Shown: piece by piece, positions 1,512-9,091 of the stretch
How the letters are laid out: each line of letters starts with the position of its first letter
Numbering within the stretch: the first letter of the stretch is position 1
Assembly (NCBI RefSeq): GCF_016865425.1
Contig: NZ_AP023355.1
Coordinates: 4,338,198 to 4,402,197 of the forward strand
Length of the DNA: 64,000 nucleotides
DNA from: Actinocatenispora thailandica
GTDB taxonomy: Bacteria > Actinomycetota > Actinomycetes > Mycobacteriales > Micromonosporaceae
Direction: 5' to 3'
Notes under the pieces: model-generated
Seen by the model: only the letters and a program-made list of their open reading frames with translations
The model's database searches: none
What the model was told of the DNA's origin: nothing
Position numbers and translations under genes: made by a program

Positions 1512-2384
1512 TCAGCCGGACCGCAGGTCGAGCAGATCGAACTGCCGCAGCCAACCGTCGGACGTCGCGGCGCAGGTCAGTGGCCGGCCGGCCGGGAGGT
1601 GCCGCTCGCGCAGCGACACCGTGCAGTCCGGATCGGCGAGCGCCACCCGCCAGCCCGCCGCACCGACCCGGTGGACCGCGACCACCCGCAGCGCGGCCAC
1701 ACCGGTGGCGCCGGTCGCGATCCGGGCGTGGTACTGGGCGGCCTGCGCCGCGGGCGGCAGCGAGCTGCGGCCGCGCAGCCAGCGCGGATCGATCGTGCCG
1801 GCCCGGTAGGCCCGGACGATCCGCACCGCCTCGGTGGTGGGCACGCCGCCGAGGGTGAAGCCGTGCGGCAGCAGCACCAGTACCGGGGCGAAGCGGCAGC
1901 CGCCGACGTGGCTGCACTCCCAGGTACCGGCGGGATCGTCGGCGGCGAGCGTCGCCGCCAGGGCCCGGCCGCGTACCGCGCAGCACGGGTCGTGCCGGCC
2001 GTGCGCGCAGACCAGCTGGAGCGGCCCGGCGACGCCGTCGCCAGCGGCACCCAGCGCCGCGACCAGCCCCGGCCCGGTCTCGAACGTACCGGTACGGATC
2101 GCCTCGTGGCCCTGCCGCGAGTCCACCCGGAACCAGCGGCGGACCCGCGCCGACCGGCCCCGCCGGCCGGGTCGGCGGATCAGCCCCAGCCGCGCGCCGT
2201 GCGCGCCGGCCCACTGCGACAGCGCGGCGACGGTGGTCGGGCCCAGGCCGGACGTTGCCAGCGCGTCGCGGCCCCACGGGCCGGGATGCTCGATCAGCAG
2301 CCAGCCCTCCGCCGGTGGCGCGGTACCTTCCCGCGGGTCGCCCGCCGCCTCGGCGAGGAACGAGCAGCGCGGCCAGGCACGCAC
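1512..2384 (-). CDS. Sucrase/ferredoxin-like (thioredoxin-fold [2Fe-2S]) protein
   Basis: This is a 290-residue protein. The GTG at 2384 lies one base after the stop of the JmjC gene, and the family signature PRCSFLAEAAGDP begins right after it. Family hallmarks are present: the HGRHDPCCAVRG block near residue 130, where H and C residues are the expected cluster ligands, then CSHVGGCRFAPVLVLLPHG. Members of this Apd1/Aim32-like family have a thioredoxin fold and bind a [2Fe-2S] cluster through Cys and His. The carboxy-terminal 80 residues are less conserved. It is the last gene of the repeat-protein/JmjC unit and may supply electrons or reduced iron to the oxygenase. That partnership is an inference from gene order. 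Confidence 0.82.
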   Translation of the reverse strand: MRAWPRCSFLAEAAGDPREGTAPPAEGWLLIEHPGPWGRDALATSGLGPTTVAALSQWAGAHGARLGLIRRPGRRGRSARVRRWFRVDSRQGHEAIRTGTFETGPGLVAALGAAGDGVAGPLQLVCAHGRHDPCCAVRGRALAATLAADDPAGTWECSHVGGCRFAPVLVLLPHGFTLGGVPTTEAVRIVRAYRAGTIDPRWLRGRSSLPPAAQAAQYHARIATGATGVAALRVVAVHRVGAAGWRVALADPDCTVSLRERHLPAGRPLTCAATSDGWLRQFDLLDLRSG

Positions 2385-2385
2385 G

Positions 2386-3738
2386 TCACGGCCCGGTCGA
2401 CGGGACCAGTACGCCCTCCCGCAGCAGCCGCCGCACCAGCACCAGCTGGTCGGCCACAGGCAGCTCCGGCAGCTCACCGACCTGTGCGGTACCGCCGGCG
2501 AGCAGGCAGCGCAGCGCCGCGGTCGTCGTGGCCGGCAGCCGGATCCGCCGATCCGCCAGCTCCAGCACGACGTGGTCGTCGCGTTCGACGAGCCGGTGCG
2601 GCAGCCCGGCGCGTCGGCGTACCGTGTCGCCGGGTGACAGGTTCGCGGCGAACCGGGCCGCGGCGACCGGCCGCACCGGCTCCGGCCGGCCACCCGACCA
2701 GACCCGGGACCGCAGCCGGCGGGCCACCGTCTCGTCGGCCGCCTGCGGTACCGCCCTCGCCAGCGCGGCGCGGACCGCGGCCAGCTGCGGGGCGAGCTGC
2801 GCCGGGTCGGTCGGGTCGATGCCCAGCGGCAGCGAGCGGCGCAGCTCCGGTTCCGCCGCGAGGCTTGCGACCAGCGCCTCCAGCACCGCGAACCGGGTGA
2901 GTACGGGCACGCCGACGGTCAGGTGCGCGGACACGTCGCCGAGCGCGGTCGCGGCGTGCAGCCAGCCGCGGGGCAGGTACATCGCATCGCCGGGGCCGAG
3001 CACGGTGTCGAGTTCCGGTGGCTCGCGCTCGGCCCGGTCGGCCACCGCCGCCGCATGGTCGGTCCAGGGCTGGTCGCGCAGCGGGTCGGGATGCACCGGC
3101 GGGTGCACCCGCCAGTGCTTGCCACCGGCGAGTTGCAGGACGAACACGTCGTGCACGTCGTAGTGCGCGGCGAACCCCTGCGCGGACGGCGGTGTCACGT
3201 AGGCGTTGACCTGCACCGGATGTCCGAGTTCGGCGGCGAGCGCGGTGCCGAACTCGACGATCGGCGGCCAGTTGCGGTGCAGCGCCTGAAGCACCACGGT
3301 GCAGCCGTCGGCGAACAGCGCGGCGACCCGGTCGTCGCGTACCTGGTCGGCGATCTCCGCGCCGACCCCGCCGGGGCCGGTGAACGACGCCGAGTCGAGC
3401 ACCGCACCGTCCCGCGCCAGCCGCAGGAACGGGGTGCGCAGCCCGCGGTACGACAGCAGTTCGTCGACGCCGTCGAGATCGAGCAGGTCGCGGAAGGCGT
3501 CCGGGTCCGCGCCGCGGACCAGCAGCGGCCGACGCGACCAGTACGAGCGGGCGAACCCGTCGACGTCGGCGCCGACCAGTCGGGCCAGCGGCCCGGCCGG
3601 CCGGGTCGGACCGGGCGGCCCGGTCGGACTGGCCGGGTCGGTCGGACCGGCCGGCCCGGTCGGACGGTCCACGGTGGGCCGCCCGACACTGCCGATCGAG
3701 GCGGCCGGATCAGCCGGCACCGGAGTCGGCCCCACCAT
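2386..3738 (-). CDS. JmjC/cupin-fold Fe(II)/2-oxoglutarate oxygenase (ROX-like)
   Basis: With the ATG at 3738 this is a 450-residue protein. The frame is open further upstream, but there it only reads the repeat gene in another phase. A GTG near 3668 is an alternative start. After a Pro/Gly/Thr-rich linker (residues 1-50), residues 50-290 match the Cupin_4/JmjC fold. HYD (H192, D194) and the later GWLHAA (H261) are the probable iron triad, and GDAMYLPRGWLH is characteristic. The last 150 residues resemble the winged-helix part of ribosomal oxygenases. Relatives hydroxylate His or Arg in ribosomal proteins. The gene overlaps the 3-prime end of the repeat-protein gene by 29 bases, so it is almost certainly coupled to it, and that repeat protein is the obvious candidate substrate. 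Confidence 0.82.
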   Translation of the reverse strand: MVGPTPVPADPAASIGSVGRPTVDRPTGPAGPTDPASPTGPPGPTRPAGPLARLVGADVDGFARSYWSRRPLLVRGADPDAFRDLLDLDGVDELLSYRGLRTPFLRLARDGAVLDSASFTGPGGVGAEIADQVRDDRVAALFADGCTVVLQALHRNWPPIVEFGTALAAELGHPVQVNAYVTPPSAQGFAAHYDVHDVFVLQLAGGKHWRVHPPVHPDPLRDQPWTDHAAAVADRAEREPPELDTVLGPGDAMYLPRGWLHAATALGDVSAHLTVGVPVLTRFAVLEALVASLAAEPELRRSLPLGIDPTDPAQLAPQLAAVRAALARAVPQAADETVARRLRSRVWSGGRPEPVRPVAAARFAANLSPGDTVRRRAGLPHRLVERDDHVVLELADRRIRLPATTTAALRCLLAGGTAQVGELPELPVADQLVLVRRLLREGVLVPSTGP

Positions 3739-4006
3739 CGGCACCACCGTCGTGCATGCCCGGGGTACCGCCGGCACCGGAGTCCGCCGGGCCTTCGGCC
3801 CCCGAATCGGCACCGCCGTCCGCACCACCGTCGTGCATGCCCGGGGTACCGCCGGCACCGGAGTCCGCCGGGCCTTCGGCCCCCGAATCGGCACCGCCGT
3901 CCGCACCACCGTCGTGCACCCCCGGCCTACCGCCCGCACCCGAATCCGCCGGGCCTTCGGCGCCGCCGCCTGCCGTGGTGGTCATGTCATTGTCGTCGAG
4001 CGTCAC
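3710..4006 (-). CDS. Small Asp/Gly-rich repeat protein, possible precursor/substrate of the JmjC oxygenase
   Basis: This is a 98-residue protein starting at GTG 4006, with GGGAGGGG 8 bases upstream, a strong site. A short leader (MTLDDNDMTTTAGGGAEGPA) precedes three repeats of 27 residues. Each repeat carries PG(M/V)HDGGADGGADSGA and then, in the first two copies, EGPADSGAGG. Each unit has exactly one His and several Asp, and there is no Cys or Lys. It has no hydrophobic segment, so it is soluble and probably disordered. The gene heads a unit with the JmjC oxygenase and the sucrase/ferredoxin-like protein. That arrangement resembles a RiPP precursor or a dedicated hydroxylation substrate. I do not recognise a named family. 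The leader and ribosome binding site argue against a chance frame. Confidence 0.68.
   Translation of the reverse strand: MTLDDNDMTTTAGGGAEGPADSGAGGRPGVHDGGADGGADSGAEGPADSGAGGTPGMHDGGADGGADSGAEGPADSGAGGTPGMHDGGADGGADSGAG
3741..3983. repeat. Three tandem 81-bp repeats inside the small repeat-protein gene
   Basis: The period is exactly 81 bases: the block GCACCACCGT starts at 3741, 3822 and 3903. The first two copies are nearly identical at DNA level and the third (leader-proximal) has diverged. Because 81 is a multiple of three, copy number can change without breaking the frame. Confidence 0.95.
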
Positions 4007-4591: not shown

Positions 4592-5461
4592 TCAGGGCCG
4601 GATCGTGTTGCGGTACGGGGGCATGAAACGCAACCGCGGCAGCTGGTCGGCGAGCACCCCGCCATCCACGACCAGGTGGGTACCGGTGATGTAGCGGCCG
4701 GCGTCGGAGGCGAGCAGCAGCATCGCGCCGACGCAGTCCGCGGGCGAGCCGGGCCCGCCGGCGAGCGGGATCCGGTCCCGCCAGGCGGCGTCGAACGCCT
4801 CCCGGTCCAGCGGGAAGTCGTCCGCGATGGGCGTGGCGAGCATCCCCGGCGCGATCGTGTTCGCGGTGATCGAGTGCGGGCCGAGTTCGGCCGCGAGCGA
4901 CTGGGTGAGCAGCTCGACCGCGCCCTTGGACGCGTTGTAGTGCGCCAGGCCCGCCTCGGCCATCAGCCCGTTCTTGGACGAGATGGTGATGATCCGGCCG
5001 GCGATGCGGTCCGCGATCATGTGCTCGGCGATCCGCTGGGACAGGAAGAAGACCGCGTCGACGTTGATGCGCATCAGCTCGCGCCAGCCGGCCACGGTGA
5101 TCTGGTTGAAGTGTTCCAGCCGGGCGGTACCGGCGTTGTTGACGAGGACGTCGACCGGTCCGGCCTGCGCCCGGATGGTGTCGGCGAGGCCGGCCAGCCC
5201 CTCGGTGTCGGCCAGGTCGTACCCGACCGGGCGGCAGCTGCCGCCGGCCGCTTCGATCCGGGCGGTCAGCGCGTCCAGGCCGGGTGCGCCGGGCCGGTCC
5301 ACCGCGACGATCGCCGCACCGGCCTCGGCCAGCCCCAGCGCCAGCGTCTCACCGAGCCCCTGCGCGGCGCCGGTGACGACCGCCCGCCGGCCGGTCAGGT
5401 CGAACCGGCCCGCCGCGTCGGGCCGGCCGGAGCGGTCAGGCGGTTCGGGCCGGCCGGTCAC
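4592..5461 (-). CDS. SDR-family NAD(P)-dependent oxidoreductase
   Basis: This is a 289-residue protein. GTG at 5461 overlaps the amidohydrolase stop as GTGA. The classical short-chain dehydrogenase pattern is present: the TGAAQGLG dinucleotide loop at residues 30-37, NNAG near 108, catalytic Ser in ITISS (about 161) and YNASK (Y175, K179). The last residues contain GTHLVVDGG, typical of the family. It is the last gene of an operon with an aminotransferase, an enolase-superfamily enzyme and an amidohydrolase. It probably oxidises or reduces a hydroxy/keto intermediate of the same pathway. The substrate cannot be read from sequence. The N-terminal 25 residues are an unusual Pro/Arg/Asp-rich extension. 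Confidence 0.88.
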   Translation of the reverse strand: MTGRPEPPDRSGRPDAAGRFDLTGRRAVVTGAAQGLGETLALGLAEAGAAIVAVDRPGAPGLDALTARIEAAGGSCRPVGYDLADTEGLAGLADTIRAQAGPVDVLVNNAGTARLEHFNQITVAGWRELMRINVDAVFFLSQRIAEHMIADRIAGRIITISSKNGLMAEAGLAHYNASKGAVELLTQSLAAELGPHSITANTIAPGMLATPIADDFPLDREAFDAAWRDRIPLAGGPGSPADCVGAMLLLASDAGRYITGTHLVVDGGVLADQLPRLRFMPPYRNTIRP

Positions 5462-6300
5462 GACAGCCCCAGCAGGTCCAGCGAGGGACGGTGGATCAGC
5501 TTCTCGATCTGGTCGGTGTCCAGTGGCGGCAGGCCGGGGATGCCGGCTACCGCGCCGACCGCGCGCAACCCGTCGATCGAGTCGTTCACCGTGGTGAACG
5601 GGTAGTCGCTGCCGAACAGCAGCTTGTCCCAGACCCCGTAGTCCTGCACCAGCCGCAGCGAGTGCCACAGCTGGAACGGCCGGTAGTGCAGCGCGGACAC
5701 GTCGGCGTACACGTGCCGGTGCTTGCGGATCACCGCGATGCACTCGCCCTCGTACGGGTGGCCCAGGTGCGCGAGCACCATCCGCAGCTGCGGGTGCCGG
5801 ATCGCCACCTCGTCCAGGTGCACCGGCAGCGCGTACTTCAACGGCGCGGCCGAGACGAAGGTGGTACCGGTGTGCACCAGCAGCGGCAGCCCGTGCCGTT
5901 CGGCGTAGGTGTAGAGCTCGTCGTATGCCGGGTCCGCCGGGTCGAAACCGGCGTACATCGGCATCAGCTTGATGCCGCGCAGACCGAGTTGCTGGTGCCC
6001 GTGGCGCAGCTCGTCGGCCCAGCCGGGCTGGGTCGGGTCGATCGCGAGGTAGCCGATCAGCGCCTCCGGGTGGGCCGCGACGTAGCGAGCGACGTCGGCG
6101 TCGTCGACCCACAGGCCGCTGCGCCGCGCCTTGCCGCCGACCACGATCGTCCGGGTACCGGGCGGGCAGCTCGCCGCGTAGTCGGCCCAGCAGACGGCGA
6201 GGTCGACCTCGCCGCCGTGCGCCCGCGCGGCCTCGGACCGGAACGGGTCGGTGATGTCGTCCGCGCAGCCGAACAGGTGCGCGTGCACGTCGACGATCAC
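5458..6300 (-). CDS. Amidohydrolase-2 family metal-dependent hydrolase/decarboxylase
   Basis: This is a 280-residue protein starting at GTG 6300, which overlaps the upstream stop by 4 bases. It has a TIM-barrel amidohydrolase layout: HAH at residues 6-8, GIKLMPMYAGFDP in mid-protein, LLVHTGTT, MVLAHLGHP and the final metal/acid Asp in LLFGSDYPF. This pattern is shared by the ACMSD/dihydroxybenzoate decarboxylase and lactonase branch, so the enzyme could decarboxylate or open a lactone. It sits between the enolase-superfamily gene and the SDR gene. A hydrolytic or decarboxylating step after the dehydratase is plausible. The substrate is unknown. Confidence 0.85.
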   Translation of the reverse strand: MIVDVHAHLFGCADDITDPFRSEAARAHGGEVDLAVCWADYAASCPPGTRTIVVGGKARRSGLWVDDADVARYVAAHPEALIGYLAIDPTQPGWADELRHGHQQLGLRGIKLMPMYAGFDPADPAYDELYTYAERHGLPLLVHTGTTFVSAAPLKYALPVHLDEVAIRHPQLRMVLAHLGHPYEGECIAVIRKHRHVYADVSALHYRPFQLWHSLRLVQDYGVWDKLLFGSDYPFTTVNDSIDGLRAVGAVAGIPGLPPLDTDQIEKLIHRPSLDLLGLS

Positions 6301-7484
6301 GTGCGCTCCCGCCGCTCCCAGCCGGGGGCGAACATGTTCCAGAACCGTTGCGTCGGCGGGTGTTCGGCGAACACCTCGTCCACCAGCTCGACCCCCAGTC
6401 CGGGTCGCTCCGGCAGCCCGATCCGGCCGTCCACGATGGGCAGCGTCCCGGTGACGGCGTCGAAGACGTAGTCCTCCAGCAGCGAGTCGAACGTCTCCAG
6501 GATCTTCAGGTTGGTGATGCCGAGCGCGGCGTGCACCGACGCCGTGGTGCACAGCGGCGAGTTCGAGTTGTGCGGCGCGACCAGCATCGCGTGCATGTCG
6601 GCCAGCGCCGCCAGCTTGCGCAGTTCGGTGAAACCACCGGCCATCGACAGGTCCGGCTGGATGATGTCCACCGCGTTGGTGGCGAACAGCTGCTTGTACT
6701 CGTACCGGTTGTGGAAGTGCTCGCCGCCGGAGATCGGCATGCTGGCGCGGGCCCGCAGCTCGGCGTAGCGCTCGATGTGCGTCCACGGCAGCGGTTCCTC
6801 GAACCAGCCGAGGTCGAACGGTGCCAGCTCGGCCACCAGTCGCGCCGCGGTCGGCATCGCGAACCGGGCGTGCCCCTCGACGAACAGCTCCACGTCCGGG
6901 CCGACCGCGTCCCGTACCGCGGCGACGATCTCGACCGAACGCCGCAGCTCGGCGCGGGACAGCTCGCCCAGCCCGGCACCGAACGGGTCGAACTTGAGCG
7001 CCGCGTACCCCTTCGCCACCGTCTCGACGGCCTTCGCGGCGAACGCGCCGGGCTCGCGCTCGCCGGTGTACCAGCCGTTCGCGTACACCGGGACCGCCGC
7101 GCGGCAGGCGCCGCCGGTCAGCCGGTAGGCCGGTACGCCCAGCGCCTTGCCCATGATGTCGTGCAGCGCCTGGTCGACCCCGCTGAGCACGACCCCGCCG
7201 ATGTCGCCGCCGCGCAGGAAGTCGCCCTGGTAGAGCCGCAGCCAGAGCTCCTCGATGTCGAACGGGTCGGCGCCGATCAGGTGCCGGTGCGCCATCGCCT
7301 CGGCCAGCGCGCAGGTCTCGCTCCCCCGGTACGGGTGGGTGATCTCGCCGACGCCGTGCAGCCCGGCGTCGGTGTGGATCCGGACGTAGCCGAAGTCGCG
7401 CCAGGCGGTGCCGAGCATCAGCGTCTCGACCCGGCTGATCCGGCCGGCCGTAGTGGTCGGCCGCTCGGTGTCAACGGTGAGCAT
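6297..7484 (-). CDS. Mandelate racemase/muconate-lactonizing (enolase superfamily) enzyme
   Basis: This is a 395-residue protein. The ATG at 7484 lies 14 bases inside the end of the aminotransferase gene. It has an N-terminal capping domain (about 1-130) followed by the barrel. Metal-ligand strands are visible: ELFVEGHARF, FEEPLPW and ISGGEHF. A KFDPF motif on the second barrel strand replaces the KxK of mandelate racemase, a form common in sugar-acid dehydratases. The RYEYKQLF, DIIQPDLSMAGGFTE and MLVAPHNSNSP segments are typical of acid-sugar dehydratases. Known relatives dehydrate aldonic or aldaric acids. Which acid is used here is not determined. The operon is probably controlled by the IclR protein encoded opposite. 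Confidence 0.85.
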   Translation of the reverse strand: MLTVDTERPTTTAGRISRVETLMLGTAWRDFGYVRIHTDAGLHGVGEITHPYRGSETCALAEAMAHRHLIGADPFDIEELWLRLYQGDFLRGGDIGGVVLSGVDQALHDIMGKALGVPAYRLTGGACRAAVPVYANGWYTGEREPGAFAAKAVETVAKGYAALKFDPFGAGLGELSRAELRRSVEIVAAVRDAVGPDVELFVEGHARFAMPTAARLVAELAPFDLGWFEEPLPWTHIERYAELRARASMPISGGEHFHNRYEYKQLFATNAVDIIQPDLSMAGGFTELRKLAALADMHAMLVAPHNSNSPLCTTASVHAALGITNLKILETFDSLLEDYVFDAVTGTLPIVDGRIGLPERPGLGVELVDEVFAEHPPTQRFWNMFAPGWERRERT

Positions 7485-8838
7485 CGGCACCACCCATGGT
7501 GGAGGTACCGGCGAGCTGGTCGATGCCGCCGGCGGCCAGGGTGTCGCGCACCGCGGTGCGGGTGGCCTCGACGAGCCGGTCGGCGTCGTCGGCGGTGTGC
7601 GCGTACGAGACGTGGCTGCGCTTGAGGTTGAGCGGCAGCTCGAACACGCCGTGCTCGGCGAGCCGCCGCCGGTAGCCGATGAACATGCCCACATCGTTGC
7701 GCAGCAGGTCGGCGTAGGTGCGCGGAACCGGGCCGGACATCAGGTAGCTGACGAACACCGAGCCGTACCCGGTGACCACGGCCGGCAGGTTCAGCTCGGC
7801 GAACACGTCGGTGAGGCCGGCCCGGATCCGGTCACCGAGCGCGAAGACGTGCTCGTGCACCGGTTCGGTGCGCAGCTTGCGCAGCGTGGCCAGCGCCGCC
7901 GCGACGACCGCCGGATGCCCGTTGTAGGTACCGGCGAAGAACGCCGGGGCGCCGGGGGTGGTGCTGAACAGCTGCATCAGGTCGGCCCGGCCGCCGAGCG
8001 CGCCCACCGGGTACCCGTTGGCGATGGCCTTGCCGAGGGTGGTCAGGTCGGGGGTGATGCCGGACAGCTGCTGCCAGCCGCCGAGTGCGTGCCGGAATCC
8101 GGTGATCACCTCGTCGAAGACCAGGACGCTGCCGTGCCGGCTGGTCTCGTCCCGCAGCGCCTGCAGGAACCCGGTGTCGGGCAGCAGGCAGCCGACGTTG
8201 TGCGGCACCGGTTCGACGATGACCGCGGCGATGTCGGCGCCGTGCTCGGTGAAGGCGGCGCGGACCGCCTCGATGTCGTTGAACGGCAGCACCAGCGTGG
8301 CGTCCAGCACCTCGGGCAGGATGCCGGTGGAGATCGGGTCGTGCCGGCCGACCCGGTCCGGCGCGGAGATCACGTTGAGGCTCACCGAGTCGTGCCAGCC
8401 GTGGTAGCAGCCCTGGAACTTGACGACCAGCCGGCGGCCGGTGGCCGCGCGTGCGACCCGCAGCGCGTGGAACGTCGCCTCGCTGCCGGTGGAGGTGAGC
8501 AGCACCTGTTCCAGGCTGGGTACCAGCTCGCAGAGCTGCTCGGCGAGGTCGATCTCGCCGGGAGTGACGCCGACGCCGCACAGGTCGAGGGTGCGACCGG
8601 CCGCGGCGACCGCGGCGGTCACGTCCGGGTCGTTGTGGCCGAGCAGCGGCGGCCCGAAGGCCGCGTGGTAGTCGACGTACTCGCGGCCGGTGCTGTCGGT
8701 GAACCGGGCGCCGTCGGCGGCGGTGATCACCAGGTCGGCGAGGCCGGGAATGCTGCGCTGGCCGGAGTTCACCCCGCCCGGGATGACGCGCCGGGCGCGG
8801 TCGGCCAGTTCGGTGTCGTGGGGGTGTGCCGCCGTCAC
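7471..8838 (-). CDS. Class III PLP aminotransferase / glutamate-1-semialdehyde aminomutase-like
   Basis: This is a 455-residue protein. The GTG at 8838 starts the conserved part (HPHDTELADRARRVIPGGVNSG). An AGGAAGG lies about 12 bases upstream. Features include the STGSEATFHALRVARAATGR cofactor region, YHGWHDS, the LVFDEVITGFR Asp that contacts the PLP nitrogen, and TLGKAIANGYP with the Schiff-base Lys. It resembles GSA aminomutase but sits in a catabolic operon with no heme genes, so it is more likely a transaminase or mutase for an amino-acid or amino-sugar-derived substrate. It is the first gene of the operon. Its promoter overlaps the 17-base dyad at 9026-9042. Confidence 0.88.
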   Translation of the reverse strand: MTAAHPHDTELADRARRVIPGGVNSGQRSIPGLADLVITAADGARFTDSTGREYVDYHAAFGPPLLGHNDPDVTAAVAAAGRTLDLCGVGVTPGEIDLAEQLCELVPSLEQVLLTSTGSEATFHALRVARAATGRRLVVKFQGCYHGWHDSVSLNVISAPDRVGRHDPISTGILPEVLDATLVLPFNDIEAVRAAFTEHGADIAAVIVEPVPHNVGCLLPDTGFLQALRDETSRHGSVLVFDEVITGFRHALGGWQQLSGITPDLTTLGKAIANGYPVGALGGRADLMQLFSTTPGAPAFFAGTYNGHPAVVAAALATLRKLRTEPVHEHVFALGDRIRAGLTDVFAELNLPAVVTGYGSVFVSYLMSGPVPRTYADLLRNDVGMFIGYRRRLAEHGVFELPLNLKRSHVSYAHTADDADRLVEATRTAVRDTLAAGGIDQLAGTSTMGGADAHR

Positions 8839-9025
8839 CGCGTGGCCCGGCCTTCCTGGGCTACCTGGGACTTCCGGGTTGCCTGGGACTTCCGGGTTGC
8901 CGGGGCTTCCCGGGCGGCCCGGGCCTCCTGGGTGACCTGCACGTCGGTGCTCCTCGTTCTCGCCGCGGCGCGGTCCAGCCCGACCGCGCTCGCGTGATCC
9001 TGCTCCGTCTGTTCCACCGCACGCT

Positions 9026-9042
9026 GTTCGGTAATGCCGAAC
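9026..9042. promoter_or_regulatory. IclR-type operator O1 (dyad GTTCGG-N5-CCGAAC)
   Basis: A perfect 6-base inverted repeat with a 5-base spacer. It overlaps the likely -10 of the minus-strand operon, whose -35 could be TTGCCG at 9054-9049. It matches the second site at 9121 in 14 of 17 positions. Binding by the neighbouring IclR protein is inferred. Confidence 0.7.
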
Positions 9043-9091
9043 GCTGTGCGGCAAACCTAGAACCGCCGTGACCTGCGAGTCAAGAGTCCGG

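Follow-up and report, generated by a model that had tools for sequence, protein, structure and literature searches.

Among the described JmjC oxygenases, NO66, MINA53 and YcfD/RoxA act on ribosomal His or Arg residues. The available part of PMC4543633 gives C-3 as the position hydroxylated, in His by NO66 and MINA53 and in Arg by YcfD, whose substrate is L16. These enzymes are not known to have a dedicated repeat-peptide gene. In a 64,000-nucleotide stretch of the Actinocatenispora thailandica genome (NZ_AP023355.1, positions 4,338,198 to 4,402,197; hereafter the window) we find an enzyme that shares with them the family PF08007, the HxD...H site and the predicted fold, including a C-terminal winged-helix-like part, and that differs in being preceded by such a gene. 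Positions 1512-4006 of the window carry, on the minus strand, a small Asp-repeat gene, then the JmjC_2 gene, then the gene of a Suc_Fer-like protein. This trio, pointed out in an initial annotation made from the sequence alone, is real at the locus and recurrent in actinobacteria. We propose with moderate confidence that it constitutes a minimal unit resembling the pathways of ribosomally synthesized and post-translationally modified peptides (RiPPs), in which a leader would guide the C-3 hydroxylation of Asp repeats.

Several other described systems resemble parts of this unit. FIH has the JmjC fold (E 6e-10 against our model) and is able to hydroxylate C-3 of Asp too, according to the part of PMC4543633 available; it differs in having ankyrin repeats and HIF as targets, in a weaker fold match than that of NO66 and in having no leader. 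BipG and PbsQ of the biphenomycin-type RiPP clusters are likewise JmjC/cupin-like hydroxylases acting on a RiPP precursor, but as far as the accessible portions of PMC12707348 and PMC12257519 describe them, it is Orn that is hydroxylated, after the action of a multinuclear non-heme iron-dependent oxidative enzyme (MNIO) and an arginase, and the cluster holds a B12 radical S-adenosylmethionine (SAM) enzyme. In the window unit, the core is made of Asp repeats, and no modifying enzyme besides the JmjC protein is widely conserved. The nitrilobacillin pathway (pes) also places beta-hydroxyaspartate on a ribosomal peptide, there by an MNIO with its partner and at one Asp (PMC13060819, available in part), whereas we propose a JmjC enzyme and many Asp. 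Finally, PMC12710340 reports domains resembling the leader-recognition element (RRE) joined to PF08007 in proteins from fish and algae. These RRE-JmjC fusions share PF08007 with the window enzyme and have an RRE-like C-terminal fold, and their closest bacterial homologues are said to lie in RiPP-like contexts; the available part of that report names no precursor family, Suc_Fer partner or chemistry for them. JmjC-type hydroxylation in RiPPs (BipG, PbsQ) and Asp beta-hydroxylation by MNIO enzymes in RiPPs are, from these partly available sources, already known. What appears to be undescribed is the combination of a freely diverging Asp-repeat core with a JmjC enzyme and no other widely conserved modifier. 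Within the open-licence PubMed Central (PMC) literature we found neither the repeat strings of the small protein nor a description of a JmjC/Asp-repeat/Suc_Fer unit; a description elsewhere is possible.

The small protein consists of the leader VTLDDNDMTTTAGGGA, three 27-residue repeats of the form EGPADSGAGG[RT]PG[VM]HDGGADGGADSGA and one Gly, giving 98 residues in total, and the repeat-coding array has an 81-bp period with 91 % matches. The three repeats with one His in each are as the initial annotation described them, while the run of Asp that it saw in every repeat turns out to be four spaced Asp (ADSG, HDGG, ADGG, ADSG); neighbouring Asp are found only within the leader (DDND). Searches of Pfam and NCBIfam returned nothing above cut-off for this protein, and for three of its relatives only far sub-threshold matches (SdrC, SdrD and ClfB at E 1.5-2.7, Bacteroid_pep at E 0.34). 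The repeats leave alternative frames open as well, which made a codon-level test necessary. Across 14 homologue pairs, the ratio of nonsynonymous to synonymous change (pN/pS) is 0.093 when read in the coding frame, against 4.3 and 5.0 for the two alternative frames; the value is indicative, some species entering several pairs and the repeats evolving in concert. By this measure the small gene is under protein-level selection and its core is strongly conserved within genera.

The pairing of the small gene with JmjC extends well beyond the window. Our set of relatives comprised 61 genomes (the window's own plus 60), 35 of them with a JmjC match, and 30 loci from 30 genomes were read, window included; matches in the five remaining genomes are partial or weak. 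At 29 of these 30 loci JmjC has an intact small Asp-rich gene immediately 5' of it, two of the 29 (L035 and L036) carrying divergent versions; at L030 the gene is frame-broken. A scan of named genomes, covering the best 80 of at least 575 relatives, gave organisms that are actinobacteria by name with the exception of L092, recorded as an unverified Bacillus. Leaving out three loci with too little upstream DNA (L037, L039, L060), the small gene is found with JmjC directly 3' of it at 77 of 77 loci, 76 by script (L064 and L091 cut short, L109 frame-broken) and L050 by reading. Conservation of the small gene beside JmjC, the check that had been suggested with the initial annotation, thus holds in both sets. 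The two sets overlap and their counts are not independent: L009/L056, L018/L088 (the latter from Actinoplanes philippinensis) and L030/L109 have equal precursors. L030 and L109 also show the same break in the precursor frame, their records being seemingly one fragmented genome, and the break may reflect loss of function or an assembly error, which are indistinguishable here.

We compared the DNA at JmjC genes with that at other genes of the same loci, using a repeat-score pattern that was fixed but devised after the repeats had been seen. A score of at least 5 was reached at 68 of 70 JmjC genes and at 0 of 607 other genes (control maximum 4). At the exceptions, L050 and L116, the small gene is present by eye, the stop in L050 lying beyond the scan range. 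The absence of high scores among the control genes, together with the codon-level selection, rules out a chance or repeat artefact.

Sampling of 396 genomes across the phylum gave JmjC matches at E 1e-40 or better in 60 and none at this level in 336; 37 of the 60, including the window's own, reach E 2e-67 or better. For 36 of these 37 strong genomes, window included, the DNA 5' of JmjC was read (G250 was left out), and a clear Asp-rich gene is present in 34 of the 35 beyond the window. The weaker group consists of 23 genomes, of which five were covered; at their six loci (L157-L161, L165) the fetched stretch contains no upstream Asp-repeat gene and no Suc_Fer match. The pairing therefore marks one JmjC_2 subfamily and not the family at large. 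Two of these weaker loci, L158 and L165, have in common a short frame just 5' of JmjC (SGL..x..RR...AR.R....SD..G...D.ND), which might define a second family of peptides, served by a JmjC enzyme of its own. A plasmid record of Streptomyces clavuligerus (L145:3742-3888) encodes a 48-residue hypothetical protein, whose start is acidic and leader-like and whose core is rich in Asp and Pro, 5' of a JmjC gene 39 % identical to that of the window over 56 % of the query. In the plasmid collection, weaker relatives turned up in 133 records, with coverage of the query below 80 % throughout, and none of 47 pattern matches in the search for viral carriage is a relative.

Leader and core of the precursors behave differently. 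An automatic run aligned 115 of the 135 precursors on the leader M-x-[LI]-[ND]-D-D-D-[IM]-T-T, a pattern that itself fixes part of the motif; the 20 misses combine wrong frames chosen by the script (L016, L075, L089, L091 and L124 among others, the precursors being read separately), cut or broken loci and genuinely different leaders. Close relatives have cores of the type EGPADGGANPNGHDGGADGSA, and in distant members the core may be DADAADADASDADA or DGTDGDS, for example, and the leader LTDDDIET or VVDEDIETVW. Cores of the EGPADGGANPxGHDGGADGSA type thus give way to DADA/DGTDGDS types, while most members retain an acidic leader that ends in D[IM] or similar. Together, a reading frame under selection and a largely retained leader in front of a core of changing type describe a gene-encoded precursor with separable leader and core. 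Asp is found in all 76 close cores, where it makes up 15.9 % of residues, with 74 % of Asp following Ala and 86 % preceding Gly, and in all 14 distant cores, where it reaches 36 %; in overall composition, Gly, Ala and Asp account for about 77 % of residues. The common denominator of the cores is Asp between small residues. One precursor (L020) extends to 222 residues, with a second repeat type (GADRGVERGADAGADV) inserted between ordinary units.

The JmjC protein belongs to JmjC_2 by its Pfam match (PF08007, E 7e-25, above cut-off), by a HxD...H triad that is intact in all aligned proteins and by the JmjC fold of its AlphaFold2 model, for which the predicted local distance difference test (pLDDT) is 91.6. 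The best fold match is NO66 (E 1e-28), followed by MINA53, RoxA-type enzymes, YxbC and FIH. Since NO66, MINA53 and YcfD act at C-3, and FIH on Asp, the C-3 hydroxylation of Asp would be a small step from known chemistry. The C-terminal end of the model is a predicted winged-helix-like domain, for which Pfam gave no match at E up to 5. RREs are common in RiPP pathways and not obligatory; by analogy, the RRE-PF08007 fusions would fit a possible role of this domain in leader binding.

The PF06999 match of the Suc_Fer-like protein lies above cut-off. A search by sequence found no solved structure for it, and its model (pLDDT 93.8) has, over about 100 residues, a weak match to thioredoxin-like [2Fe-2S] ferredoxins (E 3e-3, best of the list). 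Its initial description as a thioredoxin-fold [2Fe-2S] protein agrees with Pfam and with this predicted resemblance, at the strength of a weak match. With Aim32/Apd1 and other Suc_Fer-like proteins it has in common PF06999, the CX8C motif and, in 30 of 30 proteins, the first His of the HX3H motif of Aim32 (PMC8482512, available in part). Unlike in Aim32, the second His is replaced, by Asp in 26 of 30 proteins and by Cys in the other four (the window, at positions 1896-1898, and 3 of 29 relatives), and the cluster ligands may differ from those of the yeast proteins.

The Suc_Fer family is present at 52 of the 72 named loci compared for neighbouring genes. At distant loci its gene lies directly 3' on the same strand in 10 of 12 cases, on the opposite strand in L154 and nowhere in L155. 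Within the window's family and outside its genus, the JmjC match is strong (E 1e-106 or better) in 16 of 33 genomes and weak in one more, while a Suc_Fer match is found in none of the 33. Outside the family, JmjC occurs at 1e-40 or better in 13 of 24 genomes, all 13 with a Suc_Fer match, adjacent in 12. The partnership suggested by the initial annotation is thus frequent but dispensable, and the JmjC-bearing genomes of the same family rule out Suc_Fer as an obligatory part of the unit.

We suggest the following mechanism. The small protein is very probably the substrate of the JmjC enzyme. Its acidic N-terminal leader would be bound by the JmjC protein, perhaps through the C-terminal winged-helix-like domain, and the active site, using Fe(II), 2-oxoglutarate and O2, would hydroxylate C-3 (the beta position) of many of the spaced core Asp, yielding a poly-beta-hydroxyaspartyl peptide. 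Asp is likely to be the modified residue, and C-3 hydroxylation is the reaction that we favour, somewhat less firmly. Where present, the Suc_Fer-like protein may keep the iron of the enzyme reduced or handle iron, a role we put forward tentatively. The product would probably bind metal or act inside the cell. We consider an intracellular role likelier than an antibiotic because no exporter, protease or regulator family is widely conserved nearby; metal binding as such is a guess, and a rather doubtful one.

A number of observations weigh against this proposal. The closest solved relatives of the enzyme are known for acting on His or Arg, and winged-helix domains are also found in enzymes of the NO66 type, which work without a leader peptide. 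In L034, L130, L131, L133 and L134 the leader is short and lacks the motif, and the upstream DNA of one strong phylum-sample genome (L136, G191) shows an acidic frame without clear repeats. Apart from JmjC, Suc_Fer and the precursor, every gene family is confined to 15 or fewer of the 72 named loci, and no linked protease or exporter family is widely shared among them. In this comparison neighbours were clustered and not annotated, with gene calling trained on JmjC codons; only 30 precursors were clustered, and the precursor counts given above rest on the separate readings. The want of a conserved protease or exporter is unusual for a RiPP pathway, where such linkage is frequent though not defining.

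The alternatives differ mainly in what the JmjC enzyme would act on. The initial annotation took the single His of each repeat as the target, hydroxylated as NO66 and MINA53 do in ribosomal proteins. His is indeed present in 66 of 76 close cores, often preceding DGGAD, and the nearest fold matches are His hydroxylases; however, 10 of the 76 close cores, three of Pseudonocardia among them, and 11 of 14 distant cores are His-free despite the JmjC gene, and the residue before DGGAD[GSA] is more often A (250) than H (115), with S 39, T 26, G 17, Q 7, V 4, E 3 and R 2. With His missing from many cores and Asp universal, His is ruled out as a conserved target and this mode of action is quite improbable; what stands of the earlier proposal is the idea of a dedicated repeat substrate encoded beside a JmjC enzyme. 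Alternatively the enzyme may act, like RoxA or NO66, on a ribosomal or other cell protein, with the Asp-rich protein as a helper, regulator or target mimic, which would suit the fold of the ribosomal oxygenases, the action of YcfD on L16 (PMC4543633, in part) and the lack of a conserved protease or exporter. We regard this as improbable, since a core that turns over behind a leader persisting in most members is the usual pattern of an enzyme substrate, and since the patchy occurrence of the enzyme (336 of 396 phylum genomes without a match at E 1e-40, and one same-genus genome with none) is a poor fit to a housekeeping modifier of the ribosome.

A secreted natural product (an antibiotic, signal or metallophore) could also be matured from the repeats by this unit together with an unlinked protease and exporter. 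Repeat cores of varying number suit multi-core RiPP precursors, and the chemistry overlaps with the leader-guided Asp hydroxylation that we prefer, but the lack of any further gene family at more than 15 of the 72 loci and a core conservation within genera (pN/pS as above) that is unusual for an antibiotic make it unlikely. The least probable of these alternatives, by our estimate a very slim chance, is that the Asp-rich protein stays unmodified and serves as an acidic protein, for instance a calcium or iron buffer, whose gene is merely co-transcribed: its Gly, Ala and Asp content would suit an unstructured acidic polymer, yet the pairing with one JmjC subfamily persists in distant members with another core, and gene order and strand are kept.

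The coordinates of the unit are given in Table 1. GGGAGGGG is read immediately 5' of GTG 4006 of the small gene. A single base separates the JmjC stop from the Suc_Fer-like start, as initially annotated. The 29-base overlap claimed between the small gene and JmjC exists if JmjC begins at ATG 3738; it is not a conserved feature, because in most relatives the small-gene stop lies about 60-170 bases 5' of the conserved JmjC core.

Table 1. Features of the Asp-repeat/JmjC/Suc_Fer-like unit, in window coordinates
Feature	Position	Strand	Details
Asp-repeat precursor gene, GTG start	3710..4006	-	98 aa; GTG 4006, stop 3712-3710
Leader VTLDDNDMTTTAGGGA	3959..4006	-	16 aa; begins VTLDDNDMTTT
Repeat 1, EGPADSGAGGRPGVHDGGADGGADSGA	3878..3958	-	27 aa
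Repeat 2, EGPADSGAGGTPGMHDGGADGGADSGA	3797..3877	-	27 aa
Repeat 3, identical to repeat 2	3716..3796	-	27 aa
JmjC_2 oxygenase gene	2386..3738	-	Start uncertain: ATG 3738, GTG 3720 or GTG 3672; stop 2388-2386
HxD iron-ligand motif, JmjC protein (H126, D128 in alignment A1)	3157..3165	-	Invariant 27/27; aligns with the NO66 motif
Third iron ligand, JmjC protein (H195 in A1)	2956..2958	-	Invariant 27/27
C-terminal winged-helix-like domain, JmjC protein, candidate leader-binding site	2389..2643	-	From model secondary structure; binding inferred
Suc_Fer-like protein gene	1512..2384	-	GTG 2384; PF06999 E 2e-13
CX8C, Suc_Fer-like protein (C126 to C135)	1980..2009	-	Both Cys in 30/30 and 48/48
H159-x3-C163, Suc_Fer-like protein	1896..1910	-	Counterpart of HX3H in yeast Aim32

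The JmjC protein of the window is 86-87 % identical to that of one same-genus genome, and the next nearest among the matches listed belong to Pseudonocardiaceae such as Saccharopolyspora and Pseudonocardia (73 %). On a quick tree of 26 rows, named from kinship labels and genus names and made without L053, L054, L089, L091, L108 and L112 (stop inside the cut-out stretch), the approximately unbiased (AU) test rejected a grouping of the window JmjC with 24 rows of its own family (p 1.8e-129). On this test, vertical inheritance of the window JmjC with its own family is rejected. The equal precursors of L018 and Actinoplanes philippinensis L088 point to Micromonosporaceae as that family. The same-genus genome G002 has neither a JmjC nor a Suc_Fer match. 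The copy in the window was probably acquired laterally.

The genes flanking the unit, by Pfam a GreA/GreB-like protein, a CBS-domain protein, a short-chain dehydrogenase/reductase (SDR) and an amidohydrolase, look unrelated to the trio. Window positions 4592-9054 (minus strand) carry the SDR and the amidohydrolase, followed by frames that read as enolase-superfamily-like and aminotransferase-like, which suggests a catabolic operon.

It is conceivable, though we would not yet call it probable, that these loci represent an undescribed, widespread actinobacterial class of ribosomal peptides, with a leader-guided JmjC enzyme, a freely diverging core and a poly-beta-hydroxyaspartate product that has a conserved role, for example in iron or calcium handling. 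The unit of two or three genes is small and hence directly testable by expression and mass spectrometry. If our proposal is true, JmjC oxygenases, best known from ribosomes and chromatin, would gain, in a large phylum of bacteria, a repeat peptide as their dedicated substrate, and one group of bacterial Suc_Fer-like proteins would gain a role. The gene-coded beta-hydroxyaspartate polymer would then be a new kind of peptide, likely a metal binder.

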